From positions 3,720,001 through 3,784,000 of the forward strand of contig NZ_CP049156.1 of assembly GCF_011493005.1 (NCBI RefSeq): a stretch of 64,000 bases of DNA, read 5' to 3'. Source of the DNA: Caballeronia sp. SBC1. GTDB lineage: Bacteria > Pseudomonadota > Gammaproteobacteria > Burkholderiales > Burkholderiaceae. Position 1 is the stretch's first letter. The number at the start of each line of letters is the position of its first letter. The notes beneath the pieces are model-generated. The model saw only the letters and a list, made by a program, of their open reading frames with translations. It made no database searches and was not told the origin of the DNA. Shown here piece after piece: positions 14,753 to 38,619 of this stretch. Both the position numbers and the translations under genes were made by a program.

Positions 14753-14765
14753 CGTGTTCTCACTG

Positions 14766-21082: not shown

Positions 21083-22041
21083 AGCCCGCTGCCCGTGATC
21101 GGCCTGACGCGTTCGCCGAACAGACGTCGAACCTGGTCGACGGTGGGTTCATCGGTCGATAACGCCATCAGCGGCACACCACTCGATCGCAACAGGTCGG
21201 CCACCTCTGCGGTGCGGCCTTTGAACATGCTAGCGAGCGGCTTGCGAACCTTCTCCTGCTCGATACGCAGCTCCACCTGCAGATGTCCTTCGCTGACCAC
21301 CAGCGCACGATGCTCGGGCATGCGCTGCCAGAGAGGATCGAAGACCATCGCGGCAATGACATCATTATGTTTCGATAGCTGGCGCAATAGCTTGCGGGTA
21401 CGTTCGCTCGCGCCGGCGAAATCGCTGACGATACAGATAAGGTAATCGTGTCCTGCAAGCTGAAGTACGCCCTGAAGCGCGGTATCGAGCTGACCGTAGT
21501 TTGTTCTGGACGCGCTCTCGGCATGTAACGTTCTGTTCATCCCCGCGAGCGCGCCGAACAGCACCTTGATCCGGCTACGGCTGCGTAATGGCTTTACGCG
21601 GACGACGTGGTCGTCATCGAAGATCACGCCGCCCACGCGATCGCCCGCGGCGAATCCCATCCATACCGCGAGCGCCGCGGCCTCCGCCGCCACCACCGAC
21701 TTGAACGCACGGCTCGACCCGAAAAACATGCTCATGCGCTGATCGACGACCACAAGAAGCGGCCGGTCGCGCTCTTCCGTGTAAGCGCGAATCTGCGGCT
21801 TGCCGAGGCGCAACGACACCTTCCAGTCGATGTGACGAACATCGTCGCCAGGAAGGTAACCGCGAATCTCGTCGAAGTTAAGGCCACGGCCGCGCAACCG
21901 CGAAGCATGGTTGCCCGACAAGATGCTGGATACGGGCGCGGGCGCGACGAAACTTAACCCGCGCGCACGAAATTCGAGCTTCGCGAGATGCGCCGCGTCG
22001 ACATATACGCGGCCAATAGCAGCTTGGGATACCACGGCCAT
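21079..22041 (-). CDS. DUF58 (VWA-like) MoxR partner
   Basis: 320 residues from ATG 22041. The DUF58 signature is clear: RGRGLNFDEIRGYLPGDDVR-HIDWKVSLR. It is followed by a VWA-like fold (LLVVVDQRMSMFFGS). DUF58 proteins are encoded next to MoxR ATPases and are thought to be assembly or chaperone partners. The longer open frame adds 92 residues from an Arg-rich shadow that overlaps moxR, and was rejected. A 47-base gap follows moxR. Confidence 0.88.
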   Translation of the reverse strand: MAVVSQAAIGRVYVDAAHLAKLEFRARGLSFVAPAPVSSILSGNHASRLRGRGLNFDEIRGYLPGDDVRHIDWKVSLRLGKPQIRAYTEERDRPLLVVVDQRMSMFFGSSRAFKSVVAAEAAALAVWMGFAAGDRVGGVIFDDDHVVRVKPLRSRSRIKVLFGALAGMNRTLHAESASRTNYGQLDTALQGVLQLAGHDYLICIVSDFAGASERTRKLLRQLSKHNDVIAAMVFDPLWQRMPEHRALVVSEGHLQVELRIEQEKVRKPLASMFKGRTAEVADLLRSSGVPLMALSTDEPTVDQVRRLFGERVRPITGSGL

Positions 22042-22088
22042 TGATCGTCCCCTTGCGTGTGAGCGCGAGCTTGGGCGCAATTCGCGCG

Positions 22089-23048
22089 CTATGCCGGCAC
22101 GGCCACTTTCTCGATCAGGCGGTCGATCACCCGGTCCGCGCTGATGTTGTCCGCGTTGGCATCGTATGAAAGTATCAGCCGATGTCGCAGCACGGGATGG
22201 ATAACGGCCCGCACGTCGTCGGGTGTCACGAAACTGCGGTCCTGAAGCCACGCCTGCACGCGGCTGGCACGGTCGAGCCCGATCGCGCCACGCGGACTCG
22301 CACCAATTTCGATCCACTTGCCGAGGTCCGCGTCGAGTTGGCCGCCGTGCCGCGTTGCATTGACCAGCGAGACAATGTATTCGTCAATTGCCGGTGCCAC
22401 CGCAATCTGCCGCACCGCCTGGCGGACCGCGAAAATGACATCCTGAGACAGGGCATCGGTCACTTGCGGCGCGTCGTTGCTTTCACGTCTAAGCAGTCGC
22501 AACATCTCGCGCTCGCTTTCCGGCGACGGGTAGGTAATCAGGACCTTGAAAAGAAACCGGTCCATTTGTGCCTCGGGCAATGGATACGTGCCTTCCTGCT
22601 CAATTGGATTCTGCGTGGCCATCACCAGGAACAGATCAGGCATCCTATGCGTTTTTCCGGCGACGGAAATCTGACGCTCTTCCATGGCTTCGAGCAGAGC
22701 TGACTGAACCTTGGCAGGTGCGCGATTAATTTCGTCCGCGAGAATCAGGTTGCCGAAGATAGGGCCGGGCTGAAATGTCAGCGTTCGCTCCGTGCCCGAT
22801 TGCAGCAGCGTCTCCGCACCGGTGATGTCGGAAGGCAGAAGATCCGGCGTGAACTGAATGCGGCTCATGGTTGCCGCCAGCCGTGTAGCGATGGCTTTGA
22901 CGGTGCGTGTCTTTGCAAGCCCCGGCAGGCTCTCGAGCAGCACATGGCCGTCTGCCAAAAGAGCAATCAACACCTGTCGGACGACCGCTGCCTGACCGAC
23001 TATTGCTTCATCGACGCTGGCTTCAAAGCGCAGGATAGTTTCGCGCAT
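22089..23048 (-). CDS. MoxR-family AAA+ ATPase
   Basis: 319 residues. Variant Walker A SLPGLAKTRT, Walker B LADEINRAPAK, sensor ATQNPIEQEGTYPLPEAQMDRF (the last being a hallmark of MoxR proteins), and a C-terminal lid domain. MoxR ATPases are believed to help metal insertion or assembly of VWA-containing complexes. This is the first gene of the six-gene operon moxR-DUF58-DUF4381-BatA-BatB/C-BatD, and a promoter should lie in the 440-base region shared with the divergent FGE gene. Confidence 0.93.
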   Translation of the reverse strand: MRETILRFEASVDEAIVGQAAVVRQVLIALLADGHVLLESLPGLAKTRTVKAIATRLAATMSRIQFTPDLLPSDITGAETLLQSGTERTLTFQPGPIFGNLILADEINRAPAKVQSALLEAMEERQISVAGKTHRMPDLFLVMATQNPIEQEGTYPLPEAQMDRFLFKVLITYPSPESEREMLRLLRRESNDAPQVTDALSQDVIFAVRQAVRQIAVAPAIDEYIVSLVNATRHGGQLDADLGKWIEIGASPRGAIGLDRASRVQAWLQDRSFVTPDDVRAVIHPVLRHRLILSYDANADNISADRVIDRLIEKVAVPA

Positions 23049-23492: not shown

Positions 23493-24746
23493 ATGAGTGT
23501 ACAAAAGCGCATATCCCCGAAGGCGGGTGAGACAAACAAAGCCCCACCCAGTGCGCCCACAGGGTCTACAACACGCGCGAGACCTTATCGCAAGCTGCTG
23601 CTATGGGGCGCTCTGCTGGTGATCGTGCCGGCTGCTGTCGGCGCTGCGGTGAGCTGGGCGGTTACTTCGCGTGCCACGCCTCATCAGCAGATCATCTACG
23701 GCGACGGCACGCGAGGTCCGCTCGACATGGCCTGGGTACCGGCCGGCCAGTTTGAAATGGGAAGCGACTCCAAGCAGGCACAGGCCAATGAGCGTCCGGC
23801 GCACAAGGTCCGCGTACACGGCTTCTGGATGGATCGTCACCACGTAACCAACGCTGAATTCGCCAGATTCGTGGCCGCTACCGGGTACGTAACAACAGCG
23901 GAGAAGAAACCGGACTGGGAGTCGCTGAAGGTCCAGCTTCCACCCGGCACACCGCAACCTCCCGACAGCGCGATGGTGGCCGGCGCCATGGTTTTCGTAG
24001 GCACGACGCAACCGGTGCCGCTGGAAGACTATTCACGCTGGTGGCGTTATGTGCCCGGCGCGAATTGGCGCCATCCCACCGGTCCGGACAGCAACATAGC
24101 CGGCAAGGAAGATCACCCGGTTGTGCAGGTCTCGTATGAGGACGCGCAAGCGTATGCAAAGTGGGCGGGTAAGCGGCTGCCGACCGAAGCCGAATGGGAA
24201 TTTGCGGCACGAGGCGGCCTCGATCAAGCCACGTATGCATGGGGTAATCAGTTCGCACCGAACGGCAAGCAGATGGCCAACGTCTGGCAAGGCCAGCAGC
24301 CCCAGTCGTTTCCGGTTGTGAACCCGAAGGCCGGTGGGGCGCTCGGCACTAGCCCGGTCGGAACGTTCCCCGCCAACGGTTACGGGCTGTCGGATATGAC
24401 CGGCAACGCGTGGCAGTGGGTGGCCGACTGGTATCGCGCGGATCAGTTCAGACGAGAGGCGTCCACGGGAAGCGTTATCGACAACCCGGCGGGCCCAACG
24501 GATTCCTGGGACCCGGCAGACGCAAGCGCTGGCGTGCCCGTGCAGGCGCCCAAGCGGGTGACGCGCGGCGGCTCGTTTCTCTGCAACGAGACTTACTGCC
24601 TGAGCTACCGGCCAAGCGCGCGGCGCGGTACCGATCCCTATAACAGCATGTCGCATCTCGGCTTCAGGCTCGTGATGGACGAGAGCACGTGGGCGGACAC
24701 GCGCCAGCGGCAACAGCTTGCGCGCGCCGACGTGCCGGCCAAATGA
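23493..24746 (+). CDS. Membrane-anchored formylglycine-generating enzyme (SUMF1 type)
   Basis: 417 residues. N-terminal basic segment, then one transmembrane helix (about 34-57, KLLLWGALLVIVPAAVGAAV), then an FGE-sulfatase domain (75-410: WVPAGQFEMGS, HPVVQVSYEDAQAY, RLPTEAEWEFAARGG, GNAWQWVADW, HLGFRLV). The catalytic cysteine pair is kept as C364 and C369 (RGGSFLCNETYC), the Cu-binding site of true FGEs. FGE oxidises the sulfatase active-site Cys to formylglycine. Positive-inside charge places the catalytic domain in the periplasm, which is unusual for bacterial FGEs. GAGGTAACAGGCC precedes the ATG. It is followed by a HAD lipoprotein and a matching sulfatase. Confidence 0.9.
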   Translation: MSVQKRISPKAGETNKAPPSAPTGSTTRARPYRKLLLWGALLVIVPAAVGAAVSWAVTSRATPHQQIIYGDGTRGPLDMAWVPAGQFEMGSDSKQAQANERPAHKVRVHGFWMDRHHVTNAEFARFVAATGYVTTAEKKPDWESLKVQLPPGTPQPPDSAMVAGAMVFVGTTQPVPLEDYSRWWRYVPGANWRHPTGPDSNIAGKEDHPVVQVSYEDAQAYAKWAGKRLPTEAEWEFAARGGLDQATYAWGNQFAPNGKQMANVWQGQQPQSFPVVNPKAGGALGTSPVGTFPANGYGLSDMTGNAWQWVADWYRADQFRREASTGSVIDNPAGPTDSWDPADASAGVPVQAPKRVTRGGSFLCNETYCLSYRPSARRGTDPYNSMSHLGFRLVMDESTWADTRQRQQLARADVPAK

Positions 24747-24806: not shown

Positions 24807-25862
24807 ATGCAGCTTTACCACCGACGCGACTGGTCAGGTCGCGCCTCCGCTCTCCTGGCCGCCGCACTGGTTGCCCTGTCGCTTGCAGGCTGTGCGGGCG
24901 CGGGCACCGCAGGCGCGGCGCAGACGGTGACAACAGGCACAGCCGACGCCTTACCCTCCTGGCGTGACGGACCAGCGAAGCAGTCGATCACGAAGTTCGT
25001 TGGCGACGTCACCCGCGAGGGTTCGTCGAGCTTCGTTGCGCCCGCCGAGCGTATTGCCGTGTTCGATAACGACGGCACGTTGTGGAGCGAGCAGCCCCTG
25101 TATTTCCAGTTCCTCTTCATGCTCGATCAAGTCAAGGCTGCGGCGCCAAGCCATCCGGAATGGAAGAATAACCCCGCCTTCAAAGCGCTGATTGCCCACG
25201 ACTATCCTGCGCTCGCCAGCCACGAAAAAGAGCTGCTGCAGCTGGTGGCCGTCGCGAACAGCGGCATGACCGTCGACGAATACGACAAGACCATCCGCGA
25301 CTGGCTGGCGACGGCACGACACCCCAAATTCAAACGACCGTACACCGAGCTTGTATATCAGCCGCAACTGGAACTACTCGCTTATCTGCGCGCGAACGGG
25401 TTCAAGACGTTCATCGTTTCAGGGGGCACGATCGAATTCATGCGTCCGTGGGCCGAGAAGGTCTACGGCGTTCCGCCCGAACAAGTGATCGGTTCAAGCC
25501 AGGTTGTCCGATACGAACTGCGCAATGGTCAGCCGACTCTCACGCGCTTGCCGAAGATCGATTTCGTCGATGACGGTCCGGGCAAGCCTGTCGGTATTTA
25601 TCGAAACGTTGGCCGCAAGCCCATTCTCGCGTTCGGTAATTCGGACGGCGATTTGCAGATGCTGCAGTACACGGCCTCGGGCAGTGGTCCGCATCTCGCG
25701 CTGCTTGTCCATCACGACGATGCCACCCGAGAGTTCGCTTACGACCGCCAATCGAAGATAGGCAAGCTCGATAAAGCCTGGGACGAAGCCGTTGCGCAAG
25801 GATGGATCGTAGTGAGCATGAAGGATGACTGGCAAACGATCTATCCCGGATCGAAGCCTTAA
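24807..25862 (+). CDS. HAD-superfamily phosphatase-like lipoprotein
   Basis: 351 residues. Lipobox SLAGC with Cys29 as lipidation site. HAD motif I is VFDNDGTLW (nucleophile D87, D89), motif II TFIVSGG, motif IV GNSDGDLQML. The cap insertion between motifs I and II is helical, as in phosphoserine-phosphatase-like members. It should be a periplasmic, membrane-anchored phosphohydrolase of unknown substrate. AGGGAGTCCTG precedes the ATG; it lies 60 bases after the FGE gene and about 130 before the sulfatase gene. Position between a modifying enzyme and its target suggests a shared pathway, for example removing phosphate from a substrate that also carries sulfate; this is inference. Confidence 0.85.
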   Translation: MQLYHRRDWSGRASALLAAALVALSLAGCAGAGTAGAAQTVTTGTADALPSWRDGPAKQSITKFVGDVTREGSSSFVAPAERIAVFDNDGTLWSEQPLYFQFLFMLDQVKAAAPSHPEWKNNPAFKALIAHDYPALASHEKELLQLVAVANSGMTVDEYDKTIRDWLATARHPKFKRPYTELVYQPQLELLAYLRANGFKTFIVSGGTIEFMRPWAEKVYGVPPEQVIGSSQVVRYELRNGQPTLTRLPKIDFVDDGPGKPVGIYRNVGRKPILAFGNSDGDLQMLQYTASGSGPHLALLVHHDDATREFAYDRQSKIGKLDKAWDEAVAQGWIVVSMKDDWQTIYPGSKP

Positions 25863-25996: not shown

Positions 25997-27688
25997 ATGA
26001 GACCATTGTTTAAGAAAGGGCGCTACGCAGCGGGGGCATCGCTTATAGCCCTCGCTGTGATTTGCGCTTTGATCATCCCGCCGACCAATGCACCGGCTCA
26101 AACGCAAGGTGCGGTTAAACCAGCTACGCCCGCCGCAACGAGTGCGGCCAAACCGGCTAATCAAAATAGCGCCAAGCCCAACATCCTTGTGATTTTCGGC
26201 GATGACATTGGCCAGTCGAATGTCAGTGCTTACACGCACGGGCTGATGGGTTACAAGACGCCGAACATCGATCGTATTGCGGCAGAAGGGATGATGTTCA
26301 CGGACTACTACGCGGAAAATAGCTGTACCGCTGGCCGCTCGTCGTTCATCACCGGCCAGGTGCCGCTGCGCACCGGGCTGTCCAAGGTCGGCGCGCCGGG
26401 TGCTCCGGTCGGTCTGCAAAAAGGCGACATCACCATTGCGCAAGCGCTCAAACCTCTTGGCTACGCAACCGGTCAGTTCGGCAAGAACCACCTTGGCGAC
26501 AAGAATGAATACCTGCCGACGAATCATGGCTTCGACGAGTTCTATGGCAACCTCTATCACCTGAATGCCGAGGAGGAGCCCGATCGTCCGTACTGGCCGA
26601 AAGACAAGAACGACCCTTATGCGAAGAACTTTTCTCCGCGAGGCGTCATTCACAGCACAGCTGACGGCAAGGTAGAAGACACCGGTCCGCTCAATGCCAA
26701 GCGGATGGAAACCATCGACGATGAAACGGGCGCGAAGGCGGCTGACTTCATCACCAAGCAAGCGAAGGCCGGCACTCCGTTCTTTGTATGGATGAACTTC
26801 ACGCGCATGCACGTGTTCACGCACGTCAGGCCCGAGTTCAAGGGCAAGAGCGGCATGCCCGGCAATGAATATGCCGACGGAATGTGGGAACACGATCAGG
26901 ATGTCGGCAAGTTGCTCAAGCTGCTCGACGACCTGAAGATAGCGAAGAACACCATCGTGATCTACACGACCGACAATGGGCCGAATATGTTCTCCTGGCC
27001 TGATGCAGCCATGACGCCGTTCCGCAGCGAGAAGGACTCCAACTGGGAAGGCGCGTTCCGCGTGCCGGCCATGGTGCGCTGGCCGGGCGTGATCAAGCCG
27101 GGCGAGGTGTCGAACGATCTGTTCTCCGGGCTTGACTGGTTCCCGACCCTGCTCGCCGCAGCAGGCGACAGTGGCGTGAAGGACCGGCTGCTCAAGGGAT
27201 GGGCGCCAAAAGCAGGTGGCACCACCTTCAAGGATCACCTCGACGGCTACAACCAGCTACCGTATTTAACGGGCAAGGCTCCGAAGAGCGCGCGCACGGA
27301 GTTCTACTACTTCGATGACGACGGGCAACTGGTCGCCATGCGCTGGGAGCAGGACAACATGGCCTGGAAGGCAGTGTTCTGCGAGCAGCGTGCGCAGGGG
27401 AACCTGAACATCTGGCAGGACCCCCTGGTCTGCCTGCGCTTGCCGAAGATATTCAACCTGCGCATGGACCCTTACGAGCGAGCGGACATCACGTCGGATC
27501 AATACAACGACTGGCTGGTCAAGAACGCTTACCTGACTGGCATCGCGACATTGAAGGCGTCAACGTTCCTTCAGACCTTCGTCGCTTATCCGCCTAGCCA
27601 GAGACCGGCGAGCTTCAGCGTCGATGCGGTCCGGCGGCAAGTGGACAAGAAGATCGACGAGTCGTTCAAGAAGCGCGGGCTCGAGTAA
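25997..27688 (+). CDS. Exported type-I sulfatase (arylsulfatase family)
   Basis: 563 residues with a signal peptide (hydrophobic 11-28, cleavage near APAQT). Metal ligands start at IFGDDIGQS (D69, D70). The formylglycine motif is C110-T-A-G-R114 (NSCTAGRSSFITGQ), the Cys type that needs an FGE. GQFGKNHLGD and FTRMHVFTH, and later TTDNGPN, give further active-site His, Lys, Asp and Asn. It hydrolyses sulfate esters in the periplasm; the substrate is unknown. GGAGCAACACG precedes the ATG. A strong terminator follows immediately, closing the FGE-HAD-sulfatase unit. Confidence 0.92.
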   Translation: MRPLFKKGRYAAGASLIALAVICALIIPPTNAPAQTQGAVKPATPAATSAAKPANQNSAKPNILVIFGDDIGQSNVSAYTHGLMGYKTPNIDRIAAEGMMFTDYYAENSCTAGRSSFITGQVPLRTGLSKVGAPGAPVGLQKGDITIAQALKPLGYATGQFGKNHLGDKNEYLPTNHGFDEFYGNLYHLNAEEEPDRPYWPKDKNDPYAKNFSPRGVIHSTADGKVEDTGPLNAKRMETIDDETGAKAADFITKQAKAGTPFFVWMNFTRMHVFTHVRPEFKGKSGMPGNEYADGMWEHDQDVGKLLKLLDDLKIAKNTIVIYTTDNGPNMFSWPDAAMTPFRSEKDSNWEGAFRVPAMVRWPGVIKPGEVSNDLFSGLDWFPTLLAAAGDSGVKDRLLKGWAPKAGGTTFKDHLDGYNQLPYLTGKAPKSARTEFYYFDDDGQLVAMRWEQDNMAWKAVFCEQRAQGNLNIWQDPLVCLRLPKIFNLRMDPYERADITSDQYNDWLVKNAYLTGIATLKASTFLQTFVAYPPSQRPASFSVDAVRRQVDKKIDESFKKRGLE

Positions 27689-27699
27689 GCCGTCACCCT

Positions 27700-27744
27700 G
27701 CCGCGTCCTCCAGCTTGGTAGCCGGAGGACGCGGCTTCTTTTTT
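27700..27744 (+). terminator. Strong Rho-independent terminator after the sulfatase gene
   Basis: A 12-base perfect stem (27700-27711 pairing with 27724-27735) with a 12-base loop, followed by TTCTTTTTT. It lies 11 bases after the sulfatase stop and directly before the next gene. Confidence 0.9.
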
Positions 27745-27753
27745 GAAGAACCC

Positions 27754-30342
27754 ATGACCCAGACGCTCGCCACTCGTGCCAAAGCGACGCATCGTGAAAG
27801 ACGCGAGCGCATGCAAAGTGAGACCCGGACACATGAGAGCACGCAACCACTCGTGCCAGATGCTCCGAGTTTGCACATTGCGTGGCCGGCATTGCTTCTG
27901 CTTGCGTCGGGGGCGGCATCGCTGATCTATCAGGTCCTGTGGATCAAGCAGCTCACACTTGTGGTCGGCGCCGAGGTACTTGCGGTGACCACCGGCGTCA
28001 GCGCCTTTTTTGCGGGTCTGGCGTTGGGCGGATGGTTATTCGGACGCCTCGCCGACCGGCAGAAAAATCCGCTGCGTGTCTACGCAAGCCTGGAAATTGG
28101 CGTGTTGATATTAGCCGTGGGCGCAACCTTCGGTCTCGCTCACGCCGCTCAGCCGTTCGCGACGCTACAAGATCATGTGGGTGCGCTGGCTTGGCTCCTG
28201 CCCTTTGCGCTGGTCGGCATTCCCGCCGTCCTGATGGGCGGCACGCTGCCGGTCCTCATGCGCGCAGTCGCGCCGCTAGCCAAGCATATTGGCCGTGCCG
28301 GTGGTCGCTTATATGCAGCCAATACCGCCGGTGCGATCGTCGGAACACTAGTCGTCCCGTTTGTCCTGATTCCCGCGCTCGGTGTGTTGGGCAGCGCCCT
28401 CGCCGCCGCCGCGCTGAATGCCTCCGCTGCATTAGCCGCGCTGATCCTCAATCGCCGCGTGCATGCGCGCCTTCTAGTGGCGGCATCGCCACCTTCAGCA
28501 GCTCCGGCTACTGATCGCGCGCGGCTCGCCGTCGTACTGTATGCACTGGCCGGTGGCATTGCACTGGGCTACGAGGTCGTGTGGTCACAAGCTATCGTCC
28601 AGTTCATCAGCACCCGAAGCTTCGCCTTCTCAATCGTGTTGGCCACCTACTTATGCGGTCTCGTCCTTGGGAGCGCCCTGGTGTCACGTCATGTCGACCG
28701 CGTTCGTGATCCATGGGGAACGTTCGCGCTGCTGATCGCGGCGGCCGGTCTTGTTGCGCTGCTGCAGATCGCCTTCCTCGGCGAATGGTTATTGCAGGGA
28801 CAGGCACAGGTAGCCGGCGCGGTCTTCGCTGCAACGGGGAACATGTTCGCCGCCATGTGCGCGCGCTTCGCGCTTGCGGGTCTCTGCATCGTTTTCGTGC
28901 CAACCCTGTTGCTCGGTGCGGCGTTCCCCTTCGCGGTACGTCTTGGTGTGAACGGCAGCCGCGTAGGGCGCGATGTCGGCGTCGTCATCGCGATGAACAC
29001 AGCGGGCGGCATAGCCGGCACGATGCTCACCGGCTTCGTCCTGATGCCGAAGCTAGGCATAGTTCATGCGCTTGGCGGGCTGGCCCTCGCGGCGAGCGTA
29101 GTCGGATTGATCGCGGTCTTTCGCGGTTCTGGCGCCCGTTTGTTCGCGCGCGCAAGCGTGCTTGCCCTTGCCGCATGCGCGCTATGCGCCGCGGTGTTCA
29201 CGCCTTCCGACCGGCTCGCCACGATGCTCACCAAAGCCCGTGGCGGCGACCTGACCTTCTATGCGGAAAGCGAGGGCGGAACCGTTGCGGTCGTTGCACA
29301 GAGGTCCGGCGAAAATCGCTTTAAACGCCTGTACATTCAGGGCGTATCCAATTCCGGCGACGCCATGACGTCGCTGCGTTATATGCGCTTGCAGGCCATG
29401 CTGCCGCTGATCATTCATCGCGGCACGCCGCGCTCGGCGCTGGTGATCGGCTTGGGGACCGGCATCACGGCAGGCGCGTTATTGCCTTATCCCGGTCTCG
29501 ATCACCGTGTTGTTGCCGAATTGCTTCCGGCCGTGGTGCGTGCGGCGCCGCAATTCAAGGGCAACTACGGCGTGAGCACGGACCCGCGCGTGGAGATCCG
29601 GCTGCACGACGGGCGGCGTGAACTACTGCGCAACTCGCAACGTTACGACCTGATCACGCTGGAACCACCCCCGCCGTCGGCTGCGGGTGTCGTCAATTTG
29701 TACTCGTCGGATTTTTACAGGTTGGCGGCGTCGCGCCTGCAACCGGGTGGCCTCGTCGCACAATGGTTGCCCCTGCCGACGCAAAACGAGGAAGACACGC
29801 GTGCGTTGATCAAGAGCTTCGTACAAGTGTTTCCCTATGCAACGATGTGGACCACCGAGCTGCACGAGATGATGCTGGTAGGTTCCATGGAGCCGATTGA
29901 ACTCGACGTGCCACGTATCAGCGAACGCTTCGGGCAACCGGGCGTTGCCGAGGCGCTGCGCGAGGTGGGTATTGCCTCCCCCGCCGCACTGCTTGCCACA
30001 TGGATAACGGATCGCGCCGGCCTCGAGTACTACGCCGCCGATGCGCAACCTGTGACCGACAACCGGCCGGGCATTGAATACGCTGCGTGGGTGCGCAGGG
30101 CCGACTTCCCCAAGGTACTGACTCAGTTGCTGGCCCTGCGCAGCGCCCCCCCGCTGCAGCGCGCGGATAACGCGTTCCTGGAAGCCATGCAAACCGAACG
30201 CAACACGTTGCAAGCCTTCTACGATGCGGGGCTGGCTGCTTATCGGGGGGATCGCGATGCGTGGCAGGCAAATGTCCGCCAGGTCATGCGCGACGATGAA
30301 AACAACCCGTACTACCGGTGGTTTGTCGGTGCAGGCGGCTAG
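27754..30342 (+). CDS. Fused MFS-type membrane / spermidine-synthase-like protein
   Basis: About 862 residues from ATG 27754; the longer frame begins with TTG inside the terminator stem and is rejected. Residues about 40-490 hold many membrane helices in two similar halves, of the type annotated as fused MFS/spermidine synthase. The C-terminal 330 residues form a Rossmann methyltransferase fold with SAM motif VIGLGTGITAG and LLPAVVRAAPQF. At the catalytic motif, where spermidine synthases have Asp in D-x-x-D-P-x-G-P, it reads ITLEPPPPSAAG, so true aminopropyl transfer is unlikely. The role is unknown. It begins 10 bases after the terminator, so it may rely on its own promoter or on read-through. 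Confidence 0.8.
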   Translation: MTQTLATRAKATHRERRERMQSETRTHESTQPLVPDAPSLHIAWPALLLLASGAASLIYQVLWIKQLTLVVGAEVLAVTTGVSAFFAGLALGGWLFGRLADRQKNPLRVYASLEIGVLILAVGATFGLAHAAQPFATLQDHVGALAWLLPFALVGIPAVLMGGTLPVLMRAVAPLAKHIGRAGGRLYAANTAGAIVGTLVVPFVLIPALGVLGSALAAAALNASAALAALILNRRVHARLLVAASPPSAAPATDRARLAVVLYALAGGIALGYEVVWSQAIVQFISTRSFAFSIVLATYLCGLVLGSALVSRHVDRVRDPWGTFALLIAAAGLVALLQIAFLGEWLLQGQAQVAGAVFAATGNMFAAMCARFALAGLCIVFVPTLLLGAAFPFAVRLGVNGSRVGRDVGVVIAMNTAGGIAGTMLTGFVLMPKLGIVHALGGLALAASVVGLIAVFRGSGARLFARASVLALAACALCAAVFTPSDRLATMLTKARGGDLTFYAESEGGTVAVVAQRSGENRFKRLYIQGVSNSGDAMTSLRYMRLQAMLPLIIHRGTPRSALVIGLGTGITAGALLPYPGLDHRVVAELLPAVVRAAPQFKGNYGVSTDPRVEIRLHDGRRELLRNSQRYDLITLEPPPPSAAGVVNLYSSDFYRLAASRLQPGGLVAQWLPLPTQNEEDTRALIKSFVQVFPYATMWTTELHEMMLVGSMEPIELDVPRISERFGQPGVAEALREVGIASPAALLATWITDRAGLEYYAADAQPVTDNRPGIEYAAWVRRADFPKVLTQLLALRSAPPLQRADNAFLEAMQTERNTLQAFYDAGLAAYRGDRDAWQANVRQVMRDDENNPYYRWFVGAGG

Positions 30343-31418: not shown

Positions 31419-32225
31419 TCATCTGGGAGCCGTAACAACGATGTACTGCACCTGAGTGCCAACGTATTGCGGTTGATACCAGTTCGGTCCGCAATGTTCG
31501 TAAGCAATGCCGTTCACCACGATGCTCGAGCAGCTCGGCGGCAACGATGCAACCGTCGCGCCGACAACCACCGCTGTGGTTACACCGACCGCTACGCCGA
31601 CTGCCACCGGGTTCGCATACCAACCGTCATCGTGATAGTGATCATCGTCGTGGTGATGATCGTCATCGTGATGACCGTCGTCGTGATGATGGTCATCGTC
31701 ATGGTGGTCGTCGCCGCCATTGTGATCACCGCCGCCATTGTGGTCACCACCACCGTTGTGGTCGCCGCCGCCGTTGTGGTCACCACCACCGTTGTGGTCG
31801 CCGCCGCCGTTGTGGTCACCACCACCGTTGTGATCGCTGCCGCCGTTGTGGTCGCCGCCGCCGTTATGACCACCGCCGTTGCTGCCACCGCCGTTGCCAC
31901 CACTGTTATGGCCGCCATCGCCGCCGTTGTTGCCACCACCGTTGTGACCGCCACTGCCGCCGCTGTGACCACCGCCACCGCCTCCGCTACTGCTATGGCC
32001 CACGCCACCGCCCGGATGCGCACCCATCTGCGGACCACCGCCCGGACCACCGGGGTGGAAACCGCCCCCGCCTCCGCCCCCGCCGCCATGAAAACTGCCT
32101 CCTGGTGGCGCGTGAATGCTCGTGCGCGCGCCGCCGCGAAAACCAAACGCCTGAACACTCAACGACGTCGCAAGAAAGACGCCGGCAATACCGGCAGCAG
32201 CAAGTTGTTTTGTGCGTGACATCAT
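31419..32225 (-). CDS. Exported Gly/Asp/His repeat protein
   Basis: 268 residues. Signal peptide (about 26 residues, cleavage near SVQAF). Then a Gly-rich region with His and Ser; nine tandem six-residue units HNGGGD (residues 120-173); a block of only His and Asp with one Tyr and Gly (HHDDDHHHDDGHHDDDHHH); and a C-terminal segment with a hydrophobic Val/Ala stretch, two cysteines and WYQPQYVGTQVQYIVV. The central part looks suited to binding divalent metals, possibly Ca for the Gly/Asp repeats and Zn, Cu or Ni for His/Asp. Its ATG overlaps the DUF2092 stop, so it is translationally coupled and last in the operon. Confidence 0.75.
   Translation of the reverse strand: MMSRTKQLAAAGIAGVFLATSLSVQAFGFRGGARTSIHAPPGGSFHGGGGGGGGGFHPGGPGGGPQMGAHPGGGVGHSSSGGGGGGHSGGSGGHNGGGNNGGDGGHNSGGNGGGSNGGGHNGGGDHNGGSDHNGGGDHNGGGDHNGGGDHNGGGDHNGGGDHNGGGDHNGGDDHHDDDHHHDDGHHDDDHHHDDDHYHDDGWYANPVAVGVAVGVTTAVVVGATVASLPPSCSSIVVNGIAYEHCGPNWYQPQYVGTQVQYIVVTAPR
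31707..31868 (-). repeat. Nine 18-base tandem repeats inside the Gly/Asp/His gene
   Basis: 162 bases encode nine copies of HNGGGD (variants HNGGSD and HNGGDD at units 2 and 9). Units differ at third positions, so the array is not freshly duplicated, but copy number may still vary between strains. Confidence 0.85.
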
Positions 32226-33040
32226 TCGCTCTCCTCATACGGCGTACGCGAAGCAGGCTTCAGCTCGATCGCTTTCGCATTCGCCGCAGGCCGGAAAGTA
32301 AAGGTCGACGCAGGAAACGCGGGATTGAGTTTCCAGTGATAGGTCACGACGTGTCGTGGACGCGCGTCCTGGGTTGTATCGACAATCTCCATGCGACACG
32401 GCAGCTGACGCGTTCCGCTCTGAATCCAGAGCTCCCAGTCGGCGCCCTTCTGCTGATACGCATAGTGATTGCACCAACGCGTATCCACGCGCTCCAGCCC
32501 GATGAAAAGCGCCGACGTCAACGTAACTTCATCCACCTTGCCGTTACCCCAGTAGAACAAATCCGCAAGCGGGGTATCGATGTTGTAATCCGTCGATAAC
32601 TCGCGCACCAGCAGGTCAATCGTGGCCGGCGCAGGGTTCTTCGAGTAGTAACCTTCGGTCGTATTGAAGATGGTGAATGTCTTGCCGTCGTAGATCATCC
32701 CCTTGGGACTGCGGCTTCCGGTAATCTCCGCTCTGAGACGATTCGGCCGCTCCACTTTCAGATCCGTTTCATGAAGAAACGCGACAGTCTGGCCGCTGTC
32801 GAGAACGGCATCGGTAGCAGATGTTGCGGTCACGTCGAAGCGGCTCAGCGAGCGCAGGTAGCGTCCCATGGACGACAACGCGTCGATAGCCTGCTGCTGG
32901 CGCTCGGATTGCGCAACAGCCGCTGGTATGACCGCTACGGCGCTCGCGGGCTCGGGGCTTGTTTGCGCGAATGCATTGACCGCGCTGATGCCCAACGCGA
33001 TAAGCATGCCGCGTATTGGTCGATGATAGTGTCTTGGCAC
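32222..33040 (-). CDS. DUF2092 exported protein
   Basis: 272 residues starting with GTG at 33040 after AAGGGGGCGAC; the next ATG lacks a ribosome-binding site. Signal peptide near residues 10-26 (cleavage after NAFAQ). The mature part is the DUF2092 family: QAIDALSSMGRYLRSL, then a beta-rich fold (LRAEITGSRSPKGMIYDGKTFTIF, LRHVVTYHWK-type strands) reminiscent of LolA/LppX-like lipid carriers. A role carrying a hydrophobic ligand in the periplasm is possible but not established. It sits 9 bases after the upstream barrel gene, and its stop overlaps the next start. Confidence 0.85.
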   Translation of the reverse strand: MPRHYHRPIRGMLIALGISAVNAFAQTSPEPASAVAVIPAAVAQSERQQQAIDALSSMGRYLRSLSRFDVTATSATDAVLDSGQTVAFLHETDLKVERPNRLRAEITGSRSPKGMIYDGKTFTIFNTTEGYYSKNPAPATIDLLVRELSTDYNIDTPLADLFYWGNGKVDEVTLTSALFIGLERVDTRWCNHYAYQQKGADWELWIQSGTRQLPCRMEIVDTTQDARPRHVVTYHWKLNPAFPASTFTFRPAANAKAIELKPASRTPYEESE

Positions 33041-33049
33041 GTCGCCCCC

Positions 33050-34024
33050 TTATTGAAAAGTGGCGCTGATTGAAAGTTCGACCGCATTTCCCTTCGGGCG
33101 GTTACGCACTGCAAATTCATTGACCCATCGCAACGATGCCGACACAGGCGTGCTGCTCAGCTTCCCTGACCACGTTGCCGTCGGGCCGATCCCAAAGGAA
33201 TGGCCACTGGTGCCACCCGTCAAGTTGGCGAGACCACCGGTGTCGTCGCCGAGCTGCTGTATCCAGCCGCCGACCACACCAACACCCCATCCTCCCGTGA
33301 AGCGCTTGAGCGCAAGCAGGTCGAGCACGCTGATCGGGGCGTTGTGATAGTGCGTCTCGTTGTTGCCGGTATAGAACTCGACGCCGTAGTTCGCTGACAG
33401 CTCGACGTTATGCTCGGGCAGGAGCTTCGTGTAAGCGACAGTCGGTATGAACGTCCACGTATTCTGTCCGGCGTTGGCAAGACGGCTGAGACTGTAGGCG
33501 CCGGTAGGTGCGTATATGCCTACGCTCAACGCAATATGGTCGGTCTTGGTCAAGTGATATCCGGCCACGACCGGGGTAAAGAAAATATCCGCGAATTGCG
33601 TGGCGCTATCGTTTGGCAACCGTCCATTGAACGACGATACCGACGTGTATTGAAATGGCACGCCAAAAGACGATGCAAAGTTCCATCCTCCCGCTGTAAT
33701 GCCCCACGTCTTGACCGCGTTGAGGATGGTGTACGAGACGTTGAAATTGAGTCCGGCGGACACCGTCCCCGCGATCGGAATCGATTTGCTCTTCCCTAAC
33801 GATCCCTCGTAATAGATGGTCGAGACGGAAAAGATCCAGTCCGAAGTAGGCGGAACGATGCCGGCATAAGGCATGACCTGCATACCGGTTATCGGGCGCC
33901 CGATACCCCCTTCAGTCGCGCGGGCGGCGATTGGAATACCGAGCGCGACAGTGGCGAACGCGACTGCCGTCAGCTCCCGGTGCACACTTTTGCGCGCACC
34001 GGCCCGCTTGTTGTACGTGTCCAT
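33050..34024 (-). CDS. Outer-membrane beta-barrel, SphA / phenol-MetA-degradation family (copy 1)
   Basis: 324 residues from ATG 34024 with GGAG upstream. Signal peptide cleaved near ARATEGG, then GGIGRPITGMQVMPYAGIVPP, followed by alternating amphipathic strands to a C-terminal aromatic (SATFQ), the look of an outer-membrane barrel. Pfam groups this family under phenol degradation meta-pathway, but substrates are mostly unknown. It is a paralogue of the gene at 35992-36795 in the same operon. It lies 35 bases after the glycine-zipper gene. Confidence 0.8.
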   Translation of the reverse strand: MDTYNKRAGARKSVHRELTAVAFATVALGIPIAARATEGGIGRPITGMQVMPYAGIVPPTSDWIFSVSTIYYEGSLGKSKSIPIAGTVSAGLNFNVSYTILNAVKTWGITAGGWNFASSFGVPFQYTSVSSFNGRLPNDSATQFADIFFTPVVAGYHLTKTDHIALSVGIYAPTGAYSLSRLANAGQNTWTFIPTVAYTKLLPEHNVELSANYGVEFYTGNNETHYHNAPISVLDLLALKRFTGGWGVGVVGGWIQQLGDDTGGLANLTGGTSGHSFGIGPTATWSGKLSSTPVSASLRWVNEFAVRNRPKGNAVELSISATFQ

Positions 34025-34058
34025 GCCGACTCCTTCGCTAAGTGGTTTTCGCAATCAA

Positions 34059-34511
34059 TTACTGGACCGTGTAGCCGCGTCCCTGCATGCATGCACCGTA
34101 CGCGCGCCAGTACGTGTTCATCTCGGCTTGCTGGTTGGCTTGTGCGTTCTGCGCCTGGGCAGCGTGTTGCCGTCGGCTACGCGCCCCGCCCACCACGGCT
34201 CCAGCTGTCGCACCAACGGCTGCGCCGTGTCCCGGATCGTTGTGGTTCACGTCGCCAATGAGCGCGCCGGCCGCAGCGCCGCGAGCCGCGCCGCCCACTC
34301 GCGCGCCCGTAGGTCCCTGAGGCGGTGGCGGAGTGCCCGCAACAACCGCCGGATCGATGCCCGTGTTCTGCTTGGCCCAGGAATAACAAGCGCCGTCGTC
34401 CTGCGATTGCTTGCTGGGGCTTTGCCCATGCGCCGGATACACAGCGGGCTTGGCTGCAAACGCAGCGCTGCCGGTCATGGCAATCGCCGCTGTCAATAAA
34501 ATTGCTTTCAT
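34059..34511 (-). CDS. Glycine-zipper (YMGG-like) exported protein
   Basis: 150 residues. Signal peptide (MKAILLTAAIAMTGSAAFAA), a short region with Cys and Trp (GACYSWAKQNTG), then a glycine zipper with small-residue spacing (GAAAGALIGDV, GAAVGATAGAVVGGA), then a Gln/Ala-rich helix and YWRAYGACMQGRGYTV. Glycine zippers form tightly packed membrane helices, often in outer-membrane lipoproteins. The two Cys, one in each flank, could form a disulfide. GAGGTTGGT precedes the ATG. Part of the six-gene operon. Confidence 0.82.
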   Translation of the reverse strand: MKAILLTAAIAMTGSAAFAAKPAVYPAHGQSPSKQSQDDGACYSWAKQNTGIDPAVVAGTPPPPQGPTGARVGGAARGAAAGALIGDVNHNDPGHGAAVGATAGAVVGGARSRRQHAAQAQNAQANQQAEMNTYWRAYGACMQGRGYTVQ

Positions 34512-34570
34512 ACCAACCTCAATATCGATTAGTAAAACTTAGCTTCCAATGAATCCCGACCGATTCAATG

Positions 34571-35995
34571 TCAACCTCCCGTGGCTTTCTTCGGCTTCAC
34601 GAGTTGCCACGTTCCGTTCAGCACCTCGGCATTCGGTCCGTAGATGCGCATGATCAGCGTGTAGGCACCCGTTGGTGCCGGCAACCAGTTCGCATCTTTT
34701 CCTTTGCCTGGCGACTCATGCTGGACATAAAGATCGAGCGAGCCATCGGCTCCATACTTCAGGTGTTTTGTACGGTCGCCGATCGAATAGCGATCGATTG
34801 GATTTGCGACAAGATGGCGCCCCGGAAGGTCATACAGCGTCATTGACCAGAAGAATTTGGCGGGCGGCAGGTCTTTCTTGTCGAAGTGCAGGACATACGG
34901 CTGAGTTCCCACGAGTGGCTTGTTGTCCGCATCCGCGTGATACCCGACATACACCGCTTCTTCCTTCGTATTGCCGTAGATACCCATTGCGGCCGCGACT
35001 GCGCGTGTCATGTAGTCGTTCTTCAGGTCGTTGCGCGAACCAAAGAGACCGAAGGAACCGGTTGTCGATTTCTCAGCGGCCGCCAACGCCTGCTTGCCAT
35101 CGGTCACACCGCGCTCCAATGCTTCGCGGGTGGCCGAGTCAAGCTTGCTGGCATCGAATGGCTTGCCTGGCGCAATCCCGATCCTGGCAAAACGCTGCAT
35201 CAGTTCCGTTTCGGACGGGTTGGGCGGCTGCGTGAATTGCAGTAGAAAATTCAAATAGCCGATGAAGTTGATCGATGTCGCCCGGGCCTCGTCCCACTTG
35301 GGAAAGATCACGCTCGCGACTTCGGGCGGCGGCGTGGTGTGTTCGAAACGGGAGAGAGGCGTCAGGCCGTACTGATCCTGTATGCGAACGACGTGCCCAA
35401 CATCTGAGGGTCCATTCAGCGCCGTACGGCCGAGCGTCAGAATGAGATCCGTCTCCGACTTGAAGACCTTGTCGATACCCGGTGGCGTCTGGCCGTTCCA
35501 GCCGGGGCCCGCCAACAAGTAGTGGCCAGCGCCGTTGCCCGTCGCGCGCGAGCCGACGTAAGCAAAGTTGTAGGTGTACAGGTCGATCCACTGAAACACG
35601 TAGTAGCGATCGTCGGGAACCTTCGGAACCGACAACACCCAGGGCTCACGGCGCAGATCCAGCCACGCCCACGAATACGGGGTGTCGTTGTTCGGTGTAA
35701 CTATTTCCTTGTTGTCAGGCCCATACACCTGCGAGTAGTGGCGAAATTTCCCAAATCCGCCTATATACGCCTTCGAGTTCCTGTCCTGCGTCTGCTGGTA
35801 GAGCGTCTTGTAGTTGAACAGCATGGGGTACGCGTAAATGAACGCGTCCTTGGCGATAGCCTCCGTTTCCTGCGGCGTCGCGCTGCCTGGCCCCTGCTGC
35901 GCATTCGCAGACGAAATACTTGTCAGCGCCAGTACAGTCATTAGTATTCCGAATTTCATAAGATATCTAAATGTCATGGAAGCACCATCCGTCAT
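34571..35995 (-). CDS. DUF1254 exported protein
   Basis: 474 residues. The start at ATG 35995 is supported by an ATGA overlap with the stop of the upstream barrel gene; the signal peptide then has a longer n-region (hydrophobic MKFGILMTVLALTSISSANA). DUF1254 covers the N-terminal half (AFIYAYPMLFNYKTLYQQ, TPNNDTPYSWAWLDLRREPWVLSVP) and DUF1214 the end (KFFWSMTLYDLPGRHLVANPIDRYSIGDRT, GAYTLIMRIYGP). The function of these domains is unknown; they are widespread in soil bacteria next to exported proteins. Length is normal for the family. Confidence 0.87.
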   Translation of the reverse strand: MTDGASMTFRYLMKFGILMTVLALTSISSANAQQGPGSATPQETEAIAKDAFIYAYPMLFNYKTLYQQTQDRNSKAYIGGFGKFRHYSQVYGPDNKEIVTPNNDTPYSWAWLDLRREPWVLSVPKVPDDRYYVFQWIDLYTYNFAYVGSRATGNGAGHYLLAGPGWNGQTPPGIDKVFKSETDLILTLGRTALNGPSDVGHVVRIQDQYGLTPLSRFEHTTPPPEVASVIFPKWDEARATSINFIGYLNFLLQFTQPPNPSETELMQRFARIGIAPGKPFDASKLDSATREALERGVTDGKQALAAAEKSTTGSFGLFGSRNDLKNDYMTRAVAAAMGIYGNTKEEAVYVGYHADADNKPLVGTQPYVLHFDKKDLPPAKFFWSMTLYDLPGRHLVANPIDRYSIGDRTKHLKYGADGSLDLYVQHESPGKGKDANWLPAPTGAYTLIMRIYGPNAEVLNGTWQLVKPKKATGG

Positions 35996-36795
35996 TTACC
36001 GAAAGTCATGTTCAAACCGGCAAAAATAGTGAACTGTGGAACGCCTCGCCCTGAATGAGCGACCGAATATTGCGGCTCTATATAGGCGTTGTAGATGGTC
36101 GAACCGCTTTTCCATGCTTTGCCGCCGCCCAGGCCGACCGGGATGTAATAGCTTCCTTGCTGCAGGTCGAACGTCCACGTGCCGGTCGAGCGCACATACC
36201 ATCCACCGGGCAGATTAAAAATCCCGAATGGCTGGGCCGTCAGCGACTGCACGGTCGGGCGGCTGCCCTGCCCGGCAAACGAGTGTTGCCACTGGACCAG
36301 TGCGCCCAGCAACCGCTCCTTGGTCGCGCTGACCGCGACTGCCGCAAGACCGGCTTGCCACTTGCCCGTGCCCAGGGTTGGGTCGGTAGCAGTCGGCATG
36401 GTGATCAGCGGTCCGACGCCTACCTGGACGCCTTCCTGAGAGAGCAGGAAGATATCGAAAAGGTTGATATCGCCTAATCCCGTGTTGTATCCGCCACTGG
36501 GATCAGGGCGGGTGCTGACAGGCAAAGTTGCGCGGAAGATCTGCGGCACCCCTATCAACCCGTTGGGCCCGATCGGAATAGTCGGGCGCAGCAATAGATC
36601 ATTGGTATGCGAACTCGCACCAAATACACTGGGCGTGTAGTAATTTTGAATATTGAATGAAGCGGCCAAATTCAGCGGATTATTGCTTTTATTAGCCTCA
36701 TCCGCGGCGCTTTGCGCAAACGCCAGATTTGCGCAACATGCAATAATCAAGCCCGACAACGATCTACGGACGAATATCCGCCTACGACTGCTCAT
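35992..36795 (-). CDS. Outer-membrane beta-barrel, SphA / phenol-MetA-degradation family (copy 2)
   Basis: 267 residues from ATG 36795. Signal peptide cleaved near NLAFAQS. The mature part has repeated amphipathic strands and ends FAGLNMTFGK, typical of outer-membrane barrels. It is the first gene of the six-gene operon and is coupled to DUF1254 by a 4-base overlap. The longer frame adds 29 residues with no signal character and was rejected. The presence of two different barrels in one operon suggests either two channels or a channel plus a sensor-like barrel. Confidence 0.78.
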   Translation of the reverse strand: MSSRRRIFVRRSLSGLIIACCANLAFAQSAADEANKSNNPLNLAASFNIQNYYTPSVFGASSHTNDLLLRPTIPIGPNGLIGVPQIFRATLPVSTRPDPSGGYNTGLGDINLFDIFLLSQEGVQVGVGPLITMPTATDPTLGTGKWQAGLAAVAVSATKERLLGALVQWQHSFAGQGSRPTVQSLTAQPFGIFNLPGGWYVRSTGTWTFDLQQGSYYIPVGLGGGKAWKSGSTIYNAYIEPQYSVAHSGRGVPQFTIFAGLNMTFGK

Positions 36796-37529
36796 GGATT
36801 TTCCCAACGTTAATCTCGCAAGGTGCAGATAACCCTTCAGCGTTAATTGAATAACGCTTTTCGGGCATACGAGCGGAACCATTCCCGGCGCACCGGGAAG
36901 AGGCTTTCCATGTTTCTATAAATCGGTTTTCCGCGATATACCCACGCGGAAGGACGATATGACTTACACAGATTGCGTGGAACGAGAATTAGCCATACGT
37001 TAGTCCTCTCAGAGACATAACTGGGCACGTGTGTCCCGTGCGGGTCTGCTTGTACGCAGTGCGTCAGTAGAATTACATTTGTTACGGATGCTAGCAAACG
37101 TTTTAGCGTTTGCCAATATTATTTTGTAACTGACAAGAGCCCAATTCAATCGGCCAATACGTTTCAATAAAACGTTAGCAAACATTTGTGATGGAGAACC
37201 TTGATGCCGCGCGCGTTAGACAAAATCTAAGTAAACTTCAAGTAAGAAATTTTGCAAAAAATCGGCCCCAAATAGAAAAAAAACAGATATTGGTAGTGAA
37301 CTTAACCTTCGAGGGCTCTATTCCAACGCGCTTGCGCTGCAAGATAATTAACTGAATTAAGAGTTATTCGCCTGACTGATCCAATCGGATATTCACGTTC
37401 TTTTGAAAATCGAAACGGAACGCCAGCGCGTTTCAAAACGGAGATCTGGCCGCTCTGGCGAGCTGGAATTGAAAAACGAGCGGCGAAGGACTGCCGTGCA
37501 TTCCTGATGACACAAGGACGAGTGCACAG
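36796..37529. other. Long regulatory region between the envelope operon and the HTH gene
   Basis: About 730 bases, noticeably AT-rich from 37080 to 37300, between the divergent envelope operon and the small HTH gene. No gene was recognised. It contains the repeated TAGCAAAC(G/A)TTT motif listed separately and should hold promoters for both directions. Confidence 0.6.
37093..37187. promoter_or_regulatory. Repeated TAGCAAAC(G/A)TTT motif with inverted repeat (candidate operator)
   Basis: TAGCAAACGTTT at 37093-37104 and TAGCAAACATTT at 37176-37187 are near-identical and 83 bases apart. The first is part of an inverted repeat GCAAACG-N6-CGTTTGC (37094-37113). The placement before the envelope operon suggests a binding site; the binding protein is unknown. 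Confidence 0.45.
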
Positions 37530-37934
37530 ATGCTTTCTCAGCCCGAGAACCTCCCCAGCGTCGTTCGCCGAATGACGGCGGGACAAATGCTGCTCGACGG
37601 AGCGTCCATAGATGACGTTGCCGAACAGCTTCATCTGTCCCTGGCGACGGTGAAACGCTACAAGGCGCTGATCGACGCCGGCGGACTGGACGCATTGAAA
37701 CAATTGGGCGTGGGGGGACGTTCTTCCGTACTGGATCAGCGAGCCCTTGAGTGGATATCCGCTGCACTTCAGGGCTCGGCCCGGGATCATGGTTTCGATA
37801 GTGAGGCGTGGACCAACGCGCGCCTGCGGGCGCTGATTGAGGCGAGGTTCGGCGTCCGTTACTCCCGCGTGTACATCTGGCAGATAGCGACAAACCTTGG
37901 ACTGGGTCACTTGTTGTCCAAGTCGCGTAGGTAA
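37530..37934 (+). CDS. Small winged-HTH protein of transposase-derived type
   Basis: 134 residues made almost wholly of two helix-turn-helix units: GASIDDVAEQLHLSLATVKRYKALI (about 24-48) and RARLRALIEARFGVRYSRVYIWQI-like (about 95-120), with the linker GLDALKQLGVGGR. This pattern is the N-terminal DNA-binding part of IS630-type transposases, without the catalytic domain. It is free-standing and could be a domesticated regulator of the divergent envelope operon or of the following gene. AAGGACG lies somewhat far upstream of the ATG. Confidence 0.7.
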   Translation: MLSQPENLPSVVRRMTAGQMLLDGASIDDVAEQLHLSLATVKRYKALIDAGGLDALKQLGVGGRSSVLDQRALEWISAALQGSARDHGFDSEAWTNARLRALIEARFGVRYSRVYIWQIATNLGLGHLLSKSRR

Positions 37935-38010: not shown

Positions 38011-38619
38011 ATGACTCGCAAACACTCGTCGCGGATTTTCAGCATCAACACGCTCAGGGCGGCAATGCTCGTTTCCGCCCTGTTTGCTGCACCGGCGTTC
38101 TCACAGAATGCAGCCTCGGGCGCCGGTCCGGGCGGAGTGGGTGCCGCCGCCACCGCGGAAGTCCAGGCACGTGTAGTCGGCATCGACACTGCATCGAACA
38201 GCGTCTCGTTGCAAGGGAAGAACGGGAGAATCGTCGATATTGCCGTGAATCCGCAAGTGGGCGACGTTGCCAAGTTACAGATCGGCGATACCGTCCATAT
38301 CAAGTACGAGAACGCCGTGCTGATCCGCGCCACCAAGGTCGCGTCGAACGGGATTCGTGAGCGTGTCGACGAGACCGCAACCATCCCCGCAACCGGCGGA
38401 TCGACGGCGACCGCACGTCGGGTGCAAGTGCTAGCCACGGTTCAGAAGGTCGACCATGCGAAGCGGACCCTCACGATTCGCGGCCCGAATAAAACAGAAA
38501 CGTTGCAGGCGGGACCAGACGTTTCGCTAAAGGGAATAAAGACCGGCGACAGCGTGCATGCTGAATTTATTGAAGCGACTGCCGTACTGGTGACACGCAA
38601 CGGCGCTCCAATAAAGTAA
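38011..38619 (+). CDS. Exported protein with two OB-like repeats
   Basis: 202 residues. Signal peptide cleaved near PAFSQN. Two similar beta-rich halves: AEVQARVVGIDTASNSVSLQGKNG…VAKLQIGDTVHIKYENAVLIRA and VQVLATVQKVDHAKRTLTIRGPNK…LKGIKTGDSVHAEFIEATAV. This resembles DUF5666-like or CusF-like OB folds, but without the His/Trp/Met metal ligands. Periplasmic; function unknown. GAGAGGATTCCATA precedes the ATG. An inverted repeat with 9-base arms (38626-38634 and 38659-38667) follows the stop but has no T run. Confidence 0.75.
   Translation: MTRKHSSRIFSINTLRAAMLVSALFAAPAFSQNAASGAGPGGVGAAATAEVQARVVGIDTASNSVSLQGKNGRIVDIAVNPQVGDVAKLQIGDTVHIKYENAVLIRATKVASNGIRERVDETATIPATGGSTATARRVQVLATVQKVDHAKRTLTIRGPNKTETLQAGPDVSLKGIKTGDSVHAEFIEATAVLVTRNGAPIK

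Follow-up and report, generated by a model that had tools for sequence, protein, structure and literature searches.

Six adjacent genes for exported proteins raise the question of whether they make up one envelope pathway, as was proposed in the initial annotation, and what this pathway would handle. The genes are located in the window, a 64,000-nucleotide stretch of the Caballeronia sp. SBC1 genome, whose features are given in Table 1. All six are on the same strand, with gaps of 59, 34 and 9 bases (the middle gap had been given as 35) and two 4-base ATGA overlaps, and each protein starts with a signal-peptide-like stretch (judged by eye), as had been noted. None of the terminator-like sites listed falls inside the inter-gene gaps, which makes the predicted single transcript for the six genes plausible; note that the number of such sites in the window is at chance level, near that of shuffled sequence. 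No Rfam family at gathering score and no tRNA were found in the 64,000 nucleotides. The genome stands near those of Caballeronia sordidicola and C. udeis, and DUF2092 is 88–92% identical in the loci L041–L044 and in the truncated copy of L050.

Table 1. Features of the window (positions counted from its first nucleotide)
Feature	Position	Strand	Evidence
MoxR-DUF58-DUF4381-VWA-VWA/TPR-BatD series	16618-23048	-	Pfam
Formylglycine-generating enzyme (FGE), N-terminal membrane anchor (by eye)	23493-24746	+	PF03781, E 5.6e-83
HAD-family hydrolase, lipoprotein-like signal (by eye)	24807-25862	+	PF12710, E 5e-12
Type I sulfatase	25997-27688	+	PF00884, E 4.3e-50
Fused MFS/spermidine-synthase-like protein	27715-30342	+	NF037959, E 1.9e-32
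Gly/Asp/His partner protein, core gene 2	31419-32225	-	no Pfam match
Conserved 63-residue tail of the partner	31422-31610	-	alignment A4
DUF2092, predicted LolA-fold periplasmic protein, core gene 1	32222-33040	-	Pfam, E 7e-59
BAR4, Phenol_MetA_deg (COG4313-type) barrel	33050-34024	-	PF13557, E 3.6e-48
Glycine-zipper exported protein, accessory	34059-34511	-	PF13488, E 8.5e-9
DUF1254/DUF1214 exported protein	34571-35995	-	Pfam DUF1254, E 3e-45; DUF1214, E 3e-35
BAR1, barrel	35992-36795	-	no Pfam family
Palindrome upstream of the operon, possible operator	37094-37113		
Divergent helix-turn-helix protein, possible regulator	37530-37934	+	Pfam HTH_23, E 7e-8

The constant part of the operon is its last two genes, namely DUF2092 and the partner protein. 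Using DUF2092 as a query, 23 named loci (L041–L063) were obtained, and further loci were chosen from six family searches of other genomes, where 32 of 150, 23 of 300, 27 of 398, 7 of 240, 9 of 80 and 6 of 61 genomes contained a DUF2092 match, some of these matches being weak and resembling LolA proper. A partner gene was found directly downstream of DUF2092 in 75 of 81 unique loci, uniqueness being judged on the initial 400 bases of each DUF2092 match; these loci are not independent, since many belong to Burkholderiaceae. The tail profile identified 66 of the partners and nine were recognized by eye; at L054 and L059, counted among the 75, the contig breaks off within the partner gene and contains just its start. 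The offset between the two genes was most often −3 (28 of the 66 profile-found loci) or 0 (12 loci). The six loci without a partner include a truncated DUF2092 (L050), a contig end (L092) and four loci where no such partner follows (L101, L120, L122 and L148). At L050, the partner was lost along with the end of DUF2092.

The same pairing was seen from the side of the partner. In 150 genomes of the window's family, 33 of 38 partner tails adjoin DUF2092 and 33 of 37 full-length DUF2092 genes adjoin a partner tail (both matched by hand), with the reservation that alignment A4 was built from DUF2092-adjacent tails and is biased toward them. In the cyanobacteria Gloeothece (L188) and Leptolyngbya (L191), the downstream gene is annotated as 'DUF6515 family protein', Pfam concurs, and a sulfatase gene is located within 8 kb in both. 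The pair stays linked in bacterial classes other than the window's and in two cyanobacteria.

The remaining genes of the operon come and go. Among the ten larger-operon loci (L041–L050), DUF1254 is missing in four, cut to 22% in one and present as two overlapping pieces at L044, both barrels are reduced in two, and the glycine zipper was not found at L048. A tblastn search of the thirteen loci L051–L063 with the window proteins detected DUF2092 and did not detect DUF1254 or the barrels; DUF2092 and the partner therefore outlast the rest. Because the accessory genes are lost while these two remain, the six genes do not constitute one fixed pathway, contrary to the initial proposal: in related genomes, the accessory genes largely scatter independently, and DUF2092 and its partner clearly do not. 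Such losses, with DUF1254 missing or reduced in five of the ten close loci and both barrels reduced in two, could also indicate a loose envelope or stress neighbourhood, whose genes share regulation and not a pathway. We consider this unlikely in view of the enrichment and of the distant genomes described below. The DUF1254 protein itself has relatives in the PDB (3u07 and 2p3y).

The LolA fold is a known holder of lipid chains, and the structure model of DUF2092 is LolA-like, which agrees with its earlier description as a lipid-carrier-like protein. This periplasmic lipid-binding fold is common to LolA, LprG/LppX and RseB. DUF2092 differs from LolA, a carrier of acylated lipoproteins, in sequence (15.8 bits against TIGR00547, with a cut-off of 112), in its coupled partner, which has no lipobox (by eye), and in the sulfatases and barrels that are located nearby in part of the loci. 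RseB/MucB has a second, C-terminal domain, whereas the DUF2092 model stops after the LolA-like domain; in addition, the anti-sigma factor gene adjacent to RseB/MucB has no counterpart found by Pfam among the six genes, two of which lack a Pfam match. A LolA-like fold for DUF2092 was already put forward from sequence (PMC4520260).

The partner consists of a signal-like start, a GxARTS (GxAR) motif, a Gly/Asp/His repeat, a Gly/Ala-rich hydrophobic stretch and a two-cysteine tail of the DUF6515 kind. Judged by eye, no cysteine closes the signal-like stretch in the window protein. The last ~65 residues form its conserved part and the repeat its variable part. In relatives, the His/Asp repeat is swapped for NVN, Gly-Pro or other repeats, and it is absent from short partners; because it is not conserved, the suggestion of a metal-rich matrix protein was rejected. 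The window partner did not match PF20125 (DUF6515) and the L149 partner was below the cut-off, while the family was matched by 6 of 25 partner homologues and by the two cyanobacterial partners.

Short partners (62–110 aa) without a long repeat region were found in 17 of 40 DUF2092 regions, which belong to genomes of other families. The sequences that were read contain versions of GRPLTPxSxAGVARRTxRR, most with a cysteine pair. The partners of L119 and Leptolyngbya L191 contain the motif and the full tail in one protein and therefore link the short and long types. The short type makes a membrane role of the partner uncertain. It also bears on a somewhat unlikely alternative, in which DUF2092 is a dedicated chaperone that shields the co-translated partner in the periplasm and passes it to the outer membrane or the surface, the partner being the working part and the sulfatase link secondary. 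The near-constant coupling and overlap of the two genes, the predicted LolA fold and, in the window partner, the Gly-rich hydrophobic stretch and the variable low-complexity region are consistent with such a chaperone, but short partners leave little to shield.

The second element of the set is the sulfatase block. The window sulfatase is 71% identical to that of Paracoccus yeei (552 residues), 60% to that of L147 (313 residues) and 55% to that of L149. Its formylglycine-site motif reads CTAGR; the usual sulfatase motif is CxPxR, so the proline is replaced. The MoxR series is located just beyond FGE and is divergent from it, with an uncertain start of DUF58, since this ORF overlaps MoxR. With this series, the gene set covers ~16.6–36.8 kb of the window. 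Only six of the 23 named loci have the FGE-HAD-sulfatase block nearby; these six, labelled Caballeronia or Burkholderia sp., are all close to the window.

To evaluate the association, 40 target regions around DUF2092 (at most 20 kb each, ~10 kb either way) from 36 genomes were set against 40 control regions at a distance of ~140 kb or more. Four targets are no longer than 18.5 kb (L112, L117, L144 and L145). The controls come from the window's own genome and from 22 of the 36 that supplied the targets; the family profiles were built mostly on window sequences and then iterated over all fetched loci, including the controls. Sulfatase was found in 8 targets and no control, FGE in 4 and 0, HAD in 3 and 0, BAR1 in 5 and 0, BAR4 in 5 and 1, DUF1254 in 6 and 1, the glycine zipper in 2 and 1, HdeA and Ysc84 each in 4 and 0, DUF4136 in 2 and 0, alkylsulfatase in 2 and 1, and patatin in 2 and 2. 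At least one of sulfatase, FGE, DUF1254, BAR1 and BAR4 was present in 15 of 40 targets versus 2 of 40 controls (Fisher P 0.0007). Taken singly, sulfatase (P 0.003) and BAR1 (P 0.027) were below 0.05, and DUF1254 (0.054), FGE (0.058) and BAR4 (0.10) were above it. Genome-wide Pfam counts (188 sulfatases and 122 DUF1254 proteins in 36 genomes, 187.5 Mb) gave 0.87 expected loci for sulfatase against at least 7 of 40 observed (P 3.5e-5) and 0.54 for DUF1254 against 6 of 40 (P 2.2e-5). FGE, HAD, the barrels and DUF1254 point the same way as sulfatase; of these, BAR1 against the controls and DUF1254 against the genome-wide counts were singly below 0.05.

The association is partial. None of the five families is located within ~10 kb of DUF2092 in 25 of 40 regions, as a loose neighbourhood would have it, and sulfatase is absent from 32 of 40, as would suit the chaperone. 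The enrichment tests speak against the former, and the sulfatase enrichment is left unexplained by the latter. On plasmids, eight DUF2092 loci opened out of 93 matched records contained the partner tail in six, a sulfatase in three and an alkylsulfatase in one. The alkylsulfatase, which has a different fold from the sulfatase, was found near DUF2092 in L150, L152 and L190.

The tie to the FGE-HAD-sulfatase block, suggested in the initial annotation from proximity, recurs in distant bacteria, most clearly in P. yeei, G785 (L147) and, without HAD, G528 (L149). On a plasmid of the alphaproteobacterium P. yeei (L185/L204), the set occupies one strand over ~16 kb and comprises BAR1, FGE, DUF2092, partner, small protein, TPR-like protein, BAR4, sulfatase, MoxR, HAD (53%), DUF58-like stretch, DUF4381, VWA, VWA and BatD. 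The matches to FGE, BAR4 and one VWA each fall in two frames, and no listed gene covers the DUF58-like stretch, so this copy may be decayed or mis-sequenced. In G785, BAR1, partner, DUF2092, DUF4136, HAD, sulfatase, FGE and DUF1254 are all located on one strand. In G528, sulfatase, FGE, BAR4, DUF2092 and partner are followed by DUF4136, Omp85 and patatin, and a second partner/DUF2092/BAR1 set is present. The reassembly of much the same set in these three genomes argues against a loose neighbourhood as well.

The MoxR series extends this picture. In G1117, sulfatase (54%), MoxR, DUF58, DUF4381, VWA, VWA/TPR and BatD are located on one strand, with DUF2092 ~4 kb beyond the series and, as at three other loci, without a DUF6515-type partner. 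Judging from gene neighbourhoods, the MoxR-VWA-BatD series accompanies sulfatase and DUF2092 in three lineages. Outside the window's relatives, P. yeei and G1117 are the two clear cases of MoxR-VWA near DUF2092; MoxR alone was also seen at L163 and in the control region L164, and a search for MoxR/VWA in wider flanks of G785, G528, G712, G1072, G971 and G098 found none.

The two barrels had been described as paralogues, and this was rejected: BAR1 and BAR4 gave a BLASTP E of 0.70 and a profile-profile probability of 0.8%. BAR4 scores 165 bits against PF13557 (cut-off 22) and shows a weak sequence match to the COG4313 channel 4rl8 (E 0.013). For BAR1, nothing was found in Pfam or NCBIfam at E 0.01, and its profile revealed no relative among PDB sequences (best E 0.12, unrelated transporters). 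The AlphaFold2 model of BAR1 matches FapF, the best structural match, and 4rl8, so that BAR1 is predicted to be a 12-stranded-type barrel of the FapF/COG4313 type with an N-terminal helix. The two proteins may thus share a barrel class, BAR1 by its fold model and BAR4 by its weak sequence match. As the accessible part of one report has it, COG4313 channels are proposed for the uptake of hydrophobic molecules (PMC4493636); that part mentions no LolA-fold partner gene or sulfatase, unlike the window set. Among such channels (Pput2725 4rl8, SphA), BAR4 belongs with PF13557, whereas BAR1 shares the predicted fold without a PF13557 match.

The FapF-type fold predicted for BAR1 would also allow export, the barrels secreting the repeat-bearing partner, which would serve as an amyloid-like or matrix protein. 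We regard this as highly improbable. FapF has a periplasmic coiled coil, for which BAR1 leaves little room (~20 residues between the signal-like stretch and the first strand), and the Fap system includes the FapD/C39 peptidase and other fap genes, none of which was found among the six genes by Pfam.

These results allow us to assume that the six genes probably form the envelope half of a more extensive sulfatase gene set with a DUF2092-DUF6515 core. Since the core pair is located near sulfatase genes more often than by chance, the set may take in a greasy sulfated compound and remove its sulfate. This function, the uptake of an amphipathic sulfate ester and its desulfation, is a tentative but serious possibility, in which coupling and neighbourhoods come from sequence and the folds from models, and we infer the ligand and the direction. 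An amphipathic, probably sulfated compound would enter through an outer-membrane barrel, and DUF2092 and the partner, as a predicted carrier and its membrane or ligand-transfer mate, would bring it through the periplasm to the sulfatase. The latter, presumably activated by FGE and possibly assisted in maturation by MoxR-VWA, would cut off the sulfate. DUF1254 would be an optional extra. More doubtful is the complete picture of a new envelope pathway spread between proteobacteria and cyanobacteria, which would combine a Lol-like DUF2092 shuttle and its co-translated non-lipoprotein DUF6515 partner with plugged hydrophobic-uptake barrels and a MoxR-VWA-matured periplasmic FGE-sulfatase.

To our knowledge, DUF2092, DUF6515 and the BAR1 barrel family have no tested function; for the first two, none was found in the open-access literature. 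There, beyond single mentions, DUF1254/DUF2092 appear only in PMC4520260, and DUF1214 and DUF6515 occur only with other subjects (judged by title). No gene-cluster association of DUF2092, DUF1254 or LolA-like proteins with arylsulfatase or FGE was found in this literature, and nothing was found on arylsulfatase with MoxR and DUF58; in the one open-access paper on MoxR/VWA gene clusters that mentions sulfatase, the word comes up in one passage, about an FGE-type domain of other systems. Pairs of FGE and type I sulfatase are known, and both families occur in the window, tied here to DUF2092-DUF6515, barrels and MoxR-VWA. The families are known already, and their association was not found in the open-access literature. 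With DUF2092, DUF6515 and BAR1 linked to each other, to sulfatases and to the MoxR-VWA series, a role that can be tested is available for each. Should DUF2092 depend on the partner encoded next to it, it would be a carrier of LolA fold with one dedicated mate, and the known scope of the fold would be wider.

Two further genes of the window were followed in the 23 named loci. The divergent helix-turn-helix gene was found in 15 of them, and the MFS/spermidine-synthase fusion is full-length alongside the block in six. Note also that the barrel fold of BAR1 suits export, as in FapF, as well as uptake.

A perfect palindrome of the pattern GCAAACG-N6-CGTTTGC precedes the operon and overlaps a promoter-like site. 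The exact pattern was again present upstream of the barrel gene in four of the 23 named DUF2092 loci (L041, L042, L044 and L050). When two mismatches were permitted, its count in the window was at chance level. The divergent gene for an HTH protein was found together with DUF2092 in 15 of the 23 loci, and the gene next after it in 17. The CusF-like match of the latter's product was weak (25 bits vs. a cut-off of 27). CusB/CusF-type and OEP domains were observed in the products of RND efflux genes adjoining the MoxR series.

Features in the window and in other DUF2092 loci
Feature	Region	Position	Remark
Palindrome	window	37094-37113	~300 bp upstream of first barrel
HTH protein gene	window	37530-37934	divergent
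Gene next after HTH gene	window	38011-38619	
RND efflux genes	window	10044-16061	
Alkylsulfatase	L152	11151-13169	close to DUF2092
Alkylsulfatase	L190	3114-4952	close to DUF2092
Alkylsulfatase	L150		close to DUF2092
Tandem partners	L191 (Leptolyngbya)	8769-9476	after DUF2092

The alkylsulfatases are of the metallo-beta-lactamase type, a fold unrelated to that of the window sulfatase, and one is present in a control region as well.

The partner gene usually lies directly downstream of DUF2092. Very small partners (62–110 aa) were observed in L104-L108, L113-L119, L121, L123 and L144-L146, their genes overlapping or adjoining DUF2092. Those whose sequence was read contained versions of the motif GRPLTPxSxAGVARRTxRR, and most of them a C-terminal cysteine pair. 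In Leptolyngbya, two DUF6515-type partners stand in tandem. Among 150 genomes of the family, partner tails with no adjoining DUF2092 were found in G091:C6, G071:C10, G020:C13 and G034:C38 (genome:contig); a fifth is located in G002:C56, and the DUF2092 of that genome is on a different contig, at the contig end.

Ysc84/SYLF-type genes were observed close to DUF2092 in L186, L149, L160, L145 and L156, accompanied in the first three by patatin-type genes; in L186 (Eleftheria), they follow DUF2092 at the position expected for the partner.
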